Source: Streptomyces griseochromogenes (GTDB lineage Bacteria; Actinomycetota; Actinomycetes; Streptomycetales; Streptomycetaceae). From it: a stretch of DNA of 64,000 nt. The notes beneath the pieces were generated by a model. The model had not been told where the DNA came from. It did no database searches and worked only from the letters and a program-made list of their open reading frames with translations. Shown in pieces: positions 10,536 to 16,527 of this stretch. Positions within the stretch are counted from its first letter, which is position 1; every line of letters begins with the position of its first letter. The DNA lies in assembly GCF_001542625.1 (NCBI RefSeq), contig NZ_CP016279.1, forward strand, positions 10,354,001 to 10,418,000, given 5' to 3'. The position numbers were made by a program, and so were the translations under genes.

Positions 10536-10856
10536 TCACGCACCGGGAGCCCGGAAGGCGACCTGCCGACGAACCGCCTCGTCGATCTCATCGAGCGTCA
10601 GGAGCGGGGTGGCCCGGGTGTGGAGAGCGCCGCTGGCTTTGACGGTGAGACTGACGGCCGCCATGGTGACCGCGTCGGGGAAGTCGACGATCAGCACGAT
10701 GTCGTCCTCCCCGAAGGCGAAGTACATGGCCTCGACCTCCCCGCCGAGGTCGGCGACGATCTGGTCGACGGCGGCACTGCGGCCACTCGCGCCTTCCCTG
10801 AGCAGCCCCTTCGTGCCCTCGGGCGTGTAGGAGGCCTGGATGAGGAACTTCGGCAT
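10536..10856 (-). CDS. GYD-domain protein
   Basis: 106-residue alpha/beta-barrel (dimeric ferredoxin-like) protein of the GYD family: N-terminus MPKFLIQASYTPEGTKGL, then a segment near residues 35-65 (GGEVEAMYFAFGEDDIVLIV). The name motif Gly-Tyr-Asp is replaced by Gly-Glu-Asp. These small proteins are widespread and uncharacterised. It is only 14 bases upstream of the previous gene and could be co-transcribed with it. Confidence 0.85.
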   Translation of the reverse strand: MPKFLIQASYTPEGTKGLLREGASGRSAAVDQIVADLGGEVEAMYFAFGEDDIVLIVDFPDAVTMAAVSLTVKASGALHTRATPLLTLDEIDEAVRRQVAFRAPGA

Positions 10857-11156
10857 AGGGATGCTTCCTGCCCGTCACTTGTCCGGTACGCACAAGGGCC
10901 TTCCCGCTGCCGCGCCGGGCGCCTCTCCCCGAACGGACGAATTCACTCGTTGGAAGCCGAGCCCCGGACCTGAGCAGGGGCATGAGCCTCGGCCTGCGTT
11001 CCGCGCCGGCTACGCCTCGGGAATTCCGCGGCCGCATGGCTCATGATCGAAATGCGGGCGGCGTCGCACGCCTCGACGATGGCGGTGAAGGGCGGAGCGC
11101 GAAGCTTGTGACAGCCGAGCACTCCGCCGAGTCATGCGTCAAAGAAAGAGGAAACC
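10857..11156. other. Upstream region of the repeat-protein gene
   Basis: 300 bases between divergent genes. It ends in the purine stretch AAAGAAAGAGGAAACC, a good ribosome binding site for the ATG at 11157. No other feature can be assigned. Confidence 0.4.
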
Positions 11157-11669
11157 ATGACGGCAGCGACGGAGACTCCCACTCGAGAAAAGGCCGGTGT
11201 GGGCCAGGAAGAGTTCGGGGAGGAATCCGCCTTCGGTCCGCTCCTGTTGGCAGCGATGCTGTCCCGCCGCGAGGAACGCGGTGAGGAGCCGATCATCGAA
11301 CACCCGCTCCTTCTCGCCGCGCTCATGCGCCACCGCCGTGAGGAGCGCGGTGAAGAGCCGATCATCGAGAACCCGCTTCTCCTCGCGGCGCTCATGCACC
11401 ACCGCCGTGAGGAGCGCGGTGAAGAGTCCATCATCGAACACCCCATCCTCCTCGCCACGCTGATGCGCCGCCGCCGTGAGGAGCGCGGCGAATCAGTGAT
11501 CCAGAACCCCCTCCTGCTCGCAGCGCTCATGCGCCGCCGTGAGGAGCGCGGTGACGAGTCCATCATCGAGAACCCGCTTCTCCTCGCCGCGCTCATGCGC
11601 CACCGCCGCGAGGAGCGCGGCGAATCAGTGATCCAGAACCCCCTCCTCCTCGCCGCGCTCATGCGCCGC
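11157..11669 (+). repeat. In-frame tandem repeats of 66/69 bp
   Basis: Near-identical direct repeats of 66 or 69 bases run from about 11243 to the stop codon, all in frame. Length differs only by whole codons, so selection has kept the reading frame. They encode the repeat protein described above. Confidence 0.9.
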
Positions 11670-11672
11670 TAA
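11157..11672 (+). CDS. Tandem 22/23-residue amphipathic repeat protein of unknown function
   Basis: 171 residues made almost entirely of one repeat. After a 25-residue acidic N-terminus come six copies plus a partial seventh at the C-terminus. The unit is N/H-P-L-L-L-A-A-L-M-R-x-R, then R-E-E-R-G-E-E-P/S-I-I-E. Units are 22 or 23 residues long, varying by one Arg/His or one Glu. Each has a hydrophobic half (PLLLAALM) and a strongly charged Arg/Glu half, predicting amphipathic helices broken at Gly and Pro. DNA repeats are nearly identical, indicating recent expansion. No signal peptide or cysteine. I do not recognise the family. An intergenic hairpin separates it from a companion gene. Confidence 0.85.
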   Translation: MTAATETPTREKAGVGQEEFGEESAFGPLLLAAMLSRREERGEEPIIEHPLLLAALMRHRREERGEEPIIENPLLLAALMHHRREERGEESIIEHPILLATLMRRRREERGESVIQNPLLLAALMRRREERGDESIIENPLLLAALMRHRREERGESVIQNPLLLAALMRR

Positions 11673-11689
11673 TGGGAAATGGCGACACC

Positions 11690-11731
11690 CCTGCCCTCCG
11701 ATGCTCGCAGTCGTCGGCATCGGGGGGCAGG
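11690..11731 (+). terminator. Intercistronic hairpin between repeat protein and companion
   Basis: Arms of 15 bases (11690-11704 and 11717-11731) match at 14 positions around a 12-base loop. It could partly terminate transcription, giving more repeat protein than companion, or protect the first gene's mRNA end. Confidence 0.65.
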
Positions 11732-11765
11732 ACCCATAGGGCAACCGAAGACTTGAGGAACCACA

Positions 11766-12155
11766 ATGGCAGCTGAGTCCGGCGGACAATCGGAACGGGA
11801 TCCCCTGGAGGCCTTCATCGACGAGGTCTTCGAGGAAATGGTGCGCGATGCCGGATTCCCGCATACCGGCAGCGGTGTCAAGCTTGGCAAGGACCCACTG
11901 GCGGGAGCCCTGATGGAAGCGGCCGTGGCGTCCCTGTCCCGGCCGCCCTCCCATTCCTCCGAACTGGAGAGGATGCTCTTCGCGCAGACCCTCGCGACCG
12001 CGCTGGCCGACTCCCTCGCACCCGCTCTGGCAGAAGTGCTGGCCTCGGAGATCATGAAGGTGCTGACCCACCACGCGGCCGCCCAGAGCGGCACCCATGA
12101 ATCCGTCGGCGGATCCGGCCGCGGCCACCGCTCTTCCGGCGGCGAACATTCCTGA
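11766..12155 (+). CDS. Helical companion protein of the repeat protein, unknown function
   Basis: 129 residues, predicted mostly helical (about 12-110) with a Ser/Gly/His-rich tail. The segment DPLAGALMEAAVASL resembles the PLLLAALM core of the neighbouring repeats, and LAPALAEVLASEIMKVL is similarly amphipathic, so a shared assembly is plausible. It has no signal peptide, cysteine or catalytic motif. The start ATG follows GAGGAACCACA. It is followed by a strong terminator, so the two genes form a closed unit. No family recognised. Confidence 0.75.
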   Translation: MAAESGGQSERDPLEAFIDEVFEEMVRDAGFPHTGSGVKLGKDPLAGALMEAAVASLSRPPSHSSELERMLFAQTLATALADSLAPALAEVLASEIMKVLTHHAAAQSGTHESVGGSGRGHRSSGGEHS

Positions 12156-12196
12156 CCGAACCACCACCCCGCCAACTGACGCCCCTGCCCAGCGAC

Positions 12197-12235
12197 AAGC
12201 CCCCTGCCAGCGGAGAGACCGCGGGCAGGGGGCTT
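12197..12235. terminator. Terminator after the repeat-protein unit
   Basis: Perfect 12-bp arms (AAGCCCCCTGCC at 12197-12208 and its complement at 12224-12235), 40 bases after the companion stop. Confidence 0.88.
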
Positions 12236-12682
12236 GGTCAGGCAGGCCGGCGGCAGCGCCGCTCGACTCGCTCCGAGCGGTTGTCATGGGTCGTTGTCGG
12301 GCGCTGTCGTAAGGCGATGAAAGGCACGTCGCGCCGCTACGTCCATCAAGGTGAGTGGACCGAGCGCGGCCGGCGTGCGCGACCTTGCGCGCGGAGGACA
12401 GGGCGCATGAGCGGCGGCATCCGCGCCCGACGCGCACGCGGGTCAGTACATCCGGCGCGCTTCCCGTGCACGCCCAAGTCTGCCGGCGCCTGCTCGGGGG
12501 CGCGTACAAGCCCGTTCCGGTCTCGTCACGGGAAGACCCCGGCACACACTCTGCGTCTCGTCTCGTCTCGTCCGAACGACGATGAACGGGGCTGGCTGAG
12601 ACGGAAACTGAGACGGCCGCACTCCTCTGCGGCACGGAATACGGCCCGCGGCCAGTTGCCGGAGCCACCGTCATTCGTGGAG
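12236..12682. other. Non-coding stretch
   Basis: About 450 bases without a credible gene. A short CTCGT tandem run lies near 12560-12575. Open frames on both strands lack start signals and family-like composition. Confidence 0.4.
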
Positions 12683-12933: not shown

Positions 12934-13155
12934 CTACAGCTTGGTCATCTTGGCGTACGGGCTCAAGATCCGCATCTGCGCCGAGCCGAAATCCACGAGC
13001 GCCGCGATTCCGTCCTCGATGCCGATCACTCGGCCGAGGCCGTACACGTCGTGGGTGACCTGGTCGCCCACGGCGAAGTGCTTGGGAGCCGGTGTGACCG
13101 GGGCCTTGAAGGGGCTGGTGGGCAGATGACGCTTCGGCGCAGCAGGCTTTGTCAT
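12934..13155 (-). CDS. Mini Tudor/RNAP-interaction-domain protein (PcrA-C/CarD-like)
   Basis: 73 residues: a basic Pro-rich tail (1-25), then a single small beta-barrel (FAVGDQVTHDVYGLGRVIGI, later ALVDFGSAQMRIL, ending YAKMTKL). The pattern GDxVxHxxYGxGxVxxxExxxxxVxFG is that of the Tudor-like domain at the C-terminus of PcrA/UvrD and in CarD/TRCF, which binds RNA polymerase or DNA. A free-standing version suggests a small transcription- or repair-associated adaptor. Function is inferred from fold pattern only. Confidence 0.75.
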   Translation of the reverse strand: MTKPAAPKRHLPTSPFKAPVTPAPKHFAVGDQVTHDVYGLGRVIGIEDGIAALVDFGSAQMRILSPYAKMTKL

Positions 13156-16317: not shown

Positions 16318-16527
16318 TCAGAAGGAGGCGCTGACGCCGACCTGGTGGAACTGGCCGAGGGTTCCCAGCGCCTCGCCCTTGACGGCGTCCAGCTGGGAGA
16401 GCAGGCCGGCGCTGCTGAGGGTCGTGGACCCGGCCACGACACTGGCCTCGGGGCTCAGGCCGCCGGAGACGTTGTCGAGTTCGGCCTCGGAGATCTCGAG
16501 GGTCTGAACCTGGTGAGCGGAGTTCAT
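16318..16527 (-). CDS. Double-glycine leader peptide, cysteine-free RiPP-like precursor
   Basis: 69 residues. The N-terminal half is a textbook class II leader: acidic helix LEISEAELDNVSGG with the Gly-Gly cleavage site at residues 22-23. The 46-residue remainder is rich in Ser, Thr, Gly, Ala, Leu and Val, has no cysteine, and ends VGVSASF. Without Cys it cannot form lanthionines. No modification enzyme, C39 peptidase or ABC exporter lies nearby. It may be an unmodified secreted peptide, or be processed by enzymes encoded elsewhere. The ATG at 16527 has a purine-rich AAGGGCAGTTTCCCC upstream. Confidence 0.7.
   Translation of the reverse strand: MNSAHQVQTLEISEAELDNVSGGLSPEASVVAGSTTLSSAGLLSQLDAVKGEALGTLGQFHQVGVSASF

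Follow-up and report, generated by a model that had tools for sequence, protein, structure and literature searches.

The whole stretch of DNA analyzed here (the window, 64,000 nucleotides) lies in a 10.76-Mb single-contig genome, and two adjacent genes within it, one for a repeat protein and one for a helical companion, are the subject of this report. Both ORFs are on the plus strand at exactly the positions proposed by the first-pass annotation, which had described a two-gene unit of no known family, and its count of six full 22/23-residue units plus one cut at the C-terminus of the repeat protein was right when read from the translation. The features of the locus, in window coordinates, are as follows.

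11042-11156 (+), conserved leader that starts near CATGATCGAAATGCG and extends as far as the start codon; 14 Streptomyces sequences, window included, align
11091-11128 (+), 5' leader hairpin GGCGGAG ... CTCCGCC in the RNAalifold consensus of 14 sequences
11157-11672 (+), repeat protein gene, an ORF of 171 aa with GAGG shortly before its start codon
11238-11669 (+), array of seven units with the consensus (S)II(E)(H/N)-PLLLAALMRRR-(E/R)E(R)GE
11690-11731 (+), intergenic hairpin with a 16-bp stem and no T-run, from the fold of the 93-nt spacer
11766-12155 (+), companion gene, an ORF of 129 aa with GAGG shortly before its start codon; predicted to form three helices, with a variable tail
11994-12041 (+), most conserved companion stretch, ATALADSLAPALAEVL, residues 77-92, by entropy over 131 sequences
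12196-12236 (+), hairpin after the companion, a likely transcript end; strong fold, no T-run

The pair is flanked by a GYD-domain gene (10536-10856, minus strand) and by an ORF (12934-13155, minus strand) whose CarD-like match stays below threshold, and phoU is nearby. Further along, a 69-aa ORF (16318-16527, minus strand) with no Pfam match carries a leader-like ELDNVSGG motif, which we take to be reminiscent of a modified-peptide precursor.

At the DNA level, Tandem Repeats Finder reports a 69-bp period over 11264-11667 (6.0 copies, 79% matches, score 478). A conserved core (HPLLLAALMRRR) recurs from unit to unit, set among charged spacers whose length varies. When 235 units were compared over 43 loci, one of them the window, conservation of the core in residue order was 97% for Pro; 93, 93, and 97% for the three Leu; 99 and 89% for the two Ala; 91% for the next Leu; 65% for Met; and 73, 89, and 90% for the three Arg. 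The residues usually preceding it are Ile, then an acid or Gln, then His (79%). Successive units are 20-23 residues apart in 223 of 230 intervals; six intervals are 19, 24, or 25 residues, and one is 43. Arrays hold 2-11 units, some of them ending at contig edges, and the mean likeness is 70% for units within one gene and 61% for units of different genes. In all 40 of the 43 loci that had enough comparisons, pN was lower than pS between units of the same gene (for the window, pN 0.129 and pS 0.346), and because synonymous distance thus exceeds non-synonymous distance, the core is judged to be under selection and not merely freshly duplicated. Protein searches yielded at least 29 homologues of the repeat protein, which has one true copy in its own genome; two other matches there, one to its own antisense strand and one weak (E 0.09), were rejected.

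The repeats had been called heptad-like and strictly amphipathic, and neither term is appropriate. Units measure 19-25 residues and nearly all are initiated by Pro, and the first half of the helix is hydrophobic and the second charged, with no amphipathicity around the wheel: the hydrophobic moment of this helix at 100 degrees is 0.21, versus 0.48 in a typed amphipathic peptide used as a control. A coiled-coil filament was also rejected for the repeat protein, Pro standing at the helix start in 97% of the 235 units, every 19-25 residues. The AF2 model of both proteins as a single fused read-through chain is of low confidence (mean pLDDT 61.9, pTM 0.27) and consists of separate helices with no confident docking; within it, each unit is predicted as one short helix with loops between, several of which have pLDDT <50. 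The model puts 96 of the 171 repeat-protein residues in helices, so there is no firm basis for regarding this protein as a disordered chain. Repeats of 11 or 22 residues are familiar from apolipoproteins, LEA proteins, and synucleins, and our units are like these in being about 22 residues long, with Pro at the start and charged residues; they are unlike them in their variable spacing and in the low moment noted above.

A single-sequence search with the companion found 87 proteins, itself counted, and a profile search found 390, the best 120 of the 390 being listed; the closest protein relatives are from Streptomyces, to which the genome is taken to belong. Six comparisons gave a dN/dS of 0.24-0.48 for the companion. 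With 131 sequences as input, AF2 predicts helices at residues 13-28, 44-58, and 66-108, and the block at residues 71-100 reaches a pLDDT of 88-92; the pTM is nonetheless only 0.29, and for that reason no compact monomer fold is credited to the companion. Entropy over the 131 sequences is 0.0-0.1 at A77, L80, A81, L84, A85, P86, L88, A89, and L92, so that residues 77-92 form a nearly invariant pattern, A-x-x-LA-x-x-LAPALA-x-x-L, in which, judged by eye, Leu falls mostly at every fourth residue. The long helix has a hydrophobic moment of 0.15 at 100 degrees, and the companion further contains a short acidic helix and the tail. A DPLAGALM segment had been taken as evidence of kinship with the repeats, a suggestion that must be withdrawn: P44 and its neighbors vary among the 131 companions, the likeness being kept only in Streptomyces-like members, and profile-profile comparison detected no relation between repeat and companion (probability 0.1).

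A repeat-alignment scan of genome contigs from 84,980 species returned 48 loci, a count that includes some genomes twice, with an array spanning two contigs. Twenty are from Streptomyces, six from Dactylosporangium, three each from Nonomuraea and Streptosporangium, and two from Actinomadura; Planosporangium, Thermoactinospora, Dictyobacter, and a Ktedonobacteraceae MAG contribute one each, and the remaining ten are actinomycete MAG loci. Divergent members were missed because the scan used one core type. The pairing on which the first-pass annotation had staked its proposal is conserved: the companion lies just downstream of the repeat gene, on the same strand, in 42 of 43 testable loci, and five further loci end at a contig edge. 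Its range extends from Streptomyces, Streptosporangiales, and Micromonosporaceae (Actinomycetota) to Ktedonobacteria (Chloroflexota).

Searches centered on particular groups gave the same picture. The companion was found in 6/149 genomes of other Streptomyces, each time with a repeat gene upstream (6/6). At least 4/121 genomes of the Streptosporangiales, the order of Nonomuraea, have a true companion, with the repeat gene present in three of these four; at least 9/101 genomes of the Micromonosporaceae, the family of Dactylosporangium, carry 11 companions, each accompanied by a repeat gene. These order and family figures are lower bounds because at most 35 and 42 candidates, respectively, were scored per genome. 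Six of the 11 Micromonosporaceae pairs were absent from the first repeat scan, the repeat gene being just upstream of the companion. In the Ktedonobacteria, the class of Dictyobacter, the repeat gene is in 8/47 genomes, with a companion nearby in all eight. Two genomes, G541 (L035/L060 and L070) and G765 (L089 and L096), contain two divergent copies of the pair, in which each repeat subtype is accompanied by its own companion subtype; the core of the second, divergent pair is NPLVLAMMARRREER or similar, and these second pairs are among the six that the first scan lacked. A phylum-wide profile search in which 10 candidates per genome were scored recovered the own genome only and is no measure of prevalence; its match at L059 was a low-complexity false match. 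Matches G596/L087 and G731/L095 were dropped as due to chance, no companion-like frame being found.

Solitary forms were met twice, one for each gene. The two-unit repeat gene of Streptosporangium violaceochromogenes (L056) had no companion among all 100 first-look candidates scored in its genome, and no repeat gene was found in the genome of G683, whose companion (L085) lacks the usual first residues. Two units do not prove decay in L056, as the paired locus L054 also has two by the same rule. Two cases are of course too few to show that the genes depend on each other.

When the called genes up to 10 kb to each side of the 48 loci were clustered, no third neighbor kept its place from genus to genus. 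Because the simple gene caller misses short genes, the window companion included, a frame-based test was added: with every frame of >=40 aa taken in over some 3 kb, no cluster covered more than two groups, some loci having short flanks. The flanks of the window match those of only two of the 48 loci (L012 and L017), again with short flanks at some loci, and conservation within Streptomyces begins some 115 nt ahead of the repeat gene and ends with the companion stop codon. In the companion tree, Streptomyces and Dactylosporangium form a clade each (support 100/98 and 100/95, respectively), and the Ktedonobacteria stand beside a second Micromonosporaceae subfamily (99/96); several deep forks are weak. 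The sequences suggest that the pair is an old, patchily kept unit that has changed its chromosomal site.

Upstream of the conserved leader, similarity fades to a partial likeness in some loci, with L012 and L017 sharing wider flanks. The leader hairpin pairs are mostly invariant, and two of nine have changed on both sides. The hairpin between the genes is indeed present, as had been claimed, and placed where the two products could become unequal. A folding energy of -40.5 kcal/mol was computed for the 93-nt spacer (z -2.55), and 3/200 shuffles were as low. Of 41 spacers, the window included and those of L038 and L047 being taken 20-33 nt short, 37 have a stem score >=9; a good stem is absent from L018, L030, L031, and L043. 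The spacer z is <=-1.5 in 32/41, and L035, one of the other nine, was too long to shuffle and was scored 0. The place and strength of the hairpin persist between genera while its sequence changes, and within Streptomyces 3/16 consensus pairs have changed on both sides.

The two genes had also been assigned a shared terminator. There is a strong hairpin after the companion (12196-12236), but it has no T-run, and a terminator pattern scan called none at either hairpin; judged by eye, 2 of 16 other Streptomyces loci, L012 and L017, have similar sequence there. A hairpin without a T-run can mark a 3' end, since in S. clavuligerus the stem-loop is followed by fewer than three uridines at 353/535 highly structured 3' ends (PMC8269248). 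It is plausible that the 12196-12236 hairpin acts as a terminator. By analogy with those S. clavuligerus ends, partial termination or 3'-end protection after the repeat gene is plausible too. The repeat protein would then be the more abundant product through the hairpin.

Neither window protein scores above the cut-off in Pfam or NCBIfam, and PHROG, PADLOC, and PDB held no convincing match to either. The matches closest to notice were weak or compositional: TFIIB_C_1 (18 bits, cut-off 25) and PHROG 18666, a family without function (E 2.2e-4 over 25 residues), for the repeat protein, and YHR052C-B (15.7 bits, cut-off 27) for the companion. In sequence searches of PDB the companion reached no better than E 0.017 and the repeat profile no better than 0.063, and fold searches with both predicted models gave no significant match. 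That the unit is more than a chance pattern follows from its homologues in many genera and from the pN, pS, and dN/dS values given above. Rfam returned microRNA models only, all far below cut-off; the pair was not found in the collections of viral contigs, plasmids, and phages; and no toxin, antitoxin, or defense model passed for the window proteins. We found no literature on the gene pair, most subscription papers lying outside the search, and searching with motif strings retrieved a single paper, on a lipase.

One source names a few companions DUF2267, but 0/25 companions scanned match that family even at E 0.1, and only the name is shared; one source also names three repeat proteins uridine kinase, and the window repeat protein has no kinase match in Pfam or NCBIfam. 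A seeming natural fusion of a companion-like N-terminus to repeats (P0004) was left out as evidence because its contig is only 636 bp and other short-contig matches look chimeric (P0098 carries PF00571 and P0112 carries PF00158). The family pair is new, being of no known kind in the libraries searched, which agrees with the original description.

Both genes are under purifying selection, with the core constrained, the spacers variable, and the pairing, the gene order, and the position of a hairpin between the genes all kept. Our preferred interpretation, to which we give somewhat less than an even chance, is that one gene encodes a multivalent chain whose stickers are helices and the other a helical hub, that the two proteins co-assemble, and that the hairpin keeps the putative hub less abundant than the chain. 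Both genes would then make up one functional unit for a two-part protein assembly. The repeat protein would be a flexible chain in which each short helix (PLLLAALMRRR..) is a sticker; the charged spacers, variable in length, would join the stickers, and the number of units would set the valence. The companion would serve as the hub, its long Leu/Ala-rich helix with the LAxxLAPALAxxLA core packing with itself, with the stickers, or with both, and the intergenic hairpin would lower companion output relative to the chain. We infer mutual binding, the formation of a network, filament, or condensate, and a ratio set by the hairpin; the conserved pairing is also compatible with a regulatory pair or with a conflict system.

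Pyrenoid linkers provide the nearest precedent, at the level of architecture and with no claim of sequence likeness. They are recognized by two criteria: most of the protein is disordered, and structured elements recur in it at a spacing of 20-120 residues (PMC11570498). Like the EPYC1 and CsLinker types, the repeat protein would carry short helical repeats on a chain, at a spacing of 19-25 residues; with one predicted helix per unit and 223 of 230 intervals at 20-23 residues, its spacing falls within that range. The difference is in the partner, which is Rubisco for EPYC1 and CsLinker and here a small co-encoded helical protein. By this analogy the proposed mechanism resembles known multivalent linkers, and novelty rests on the family pair.

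Actinomycetes and Ktedonobacteria include lineages with mycelial growth and spores. A more doubtful extension of the chain-and-hub interpretation is that the two groups possess a previously unrecognized two-protein scaffold system, in which a chain of evolvable valence (2-11 stickers) and a putative hub, at a hairpin-fixed ratio, would form a condensate or body complete in itself. The pair is inherited like a single function, with one gene order, a hairpin between the genes, a distribution over two phyla, and rare solitary members. It would be a compact case of a possible new bacterial assembly, because there is no domain, structure, or conserved neighbor from which to borrow a function, and chain length would be its natural dial.

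An unlikely alternative is a surface coat: a membrane, lipid body, or storage granule would take up the hydrophobic half of each repeat helix, and the long Leu/Ala helix of the companion would insert likewise or cap the coat; phasins, perilipins, and apolipoproteins coat surfaces in this way. The hydrophobic PLLLAALM block beside an Arg cluster would suit such a role, and the only PDB sequence match of the companion profile, although insignificant (E 3.1), was an engineered GALA cage, the LAxA helix of the companion presumably recalling GALA, a pH-dependent membrane peptide. The low moments, 0.21 in the repeat helix and 0.15 in the long helix of the companion, argue against insertion, however, as do a spacing that varies instead of keeping a fixed 11- or 22-residue period and the absence of a third conserved neighbor.

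DnaK-binding peptides have Leu-rich cores flanked by arginines, a preference that the PLLLAALM-RRR core fits, and the patchy, accessory spread (6/149 other Streptomyces) would suit a stress aid. That the array is a chaperone decoy or stress protectant, occupying or recruiting DnaK under regulation by the companion, is nevertheless highly improbable: it leaves the conserved companion helix and the hairpin unexplained, and here also a third conserved neighbor is absent. Slightly more improbable again is a toxin-antitoxin or other conflict pair held together by co-dependence. Two small genes of patchy spread, carried by relatives at different chromosomal sites and rarely solitary, are what such a pair would look like, but the toxin, antitoxin, and defense models fail for the window proteins, the plasmid, phage, and viral collections did not contain the pair, and the companions of Streptomyces and of Dactylosporangium each form a single clade. 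Least probable is a precursor cut at its Arg clusters into several copies of one short peptide, with the companion as export or immunity helper: the near-identical tandem units with basic stretches do recall multi-core precursors, in which these are usual, but no protease, modifying enzyme, or transporter is among the conserved neighbors, and a multi-core RiPP precursor was rejected because processing and export genes are not conserved alongside the 48 loci, some of which have short flanks.

Two kinds of element were noticed upstream of repeat genes. An inverted repeat near TTCACCCG-N4-CGGGTGA lies at about -128 to -135 and occurs at L025, L030, L033, L035, L040, L042, L054, and L089; with <=2 mismatches allowed it was found in 11/54 upstream regions (three at other distances), none of them from Streptomyces, compared with a mean of 2.8 and a maximum of 5 in 20 shuffles, the motif having been picked after some of the sequences were seen. 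It recurs in several lineages and is possibly an operator. Elements resembling CTCGTACGTCAT are present in the last 140 nt before the second-subfamily repeat gene (L070, L093, L094, and L096) and are repeated in some of these.
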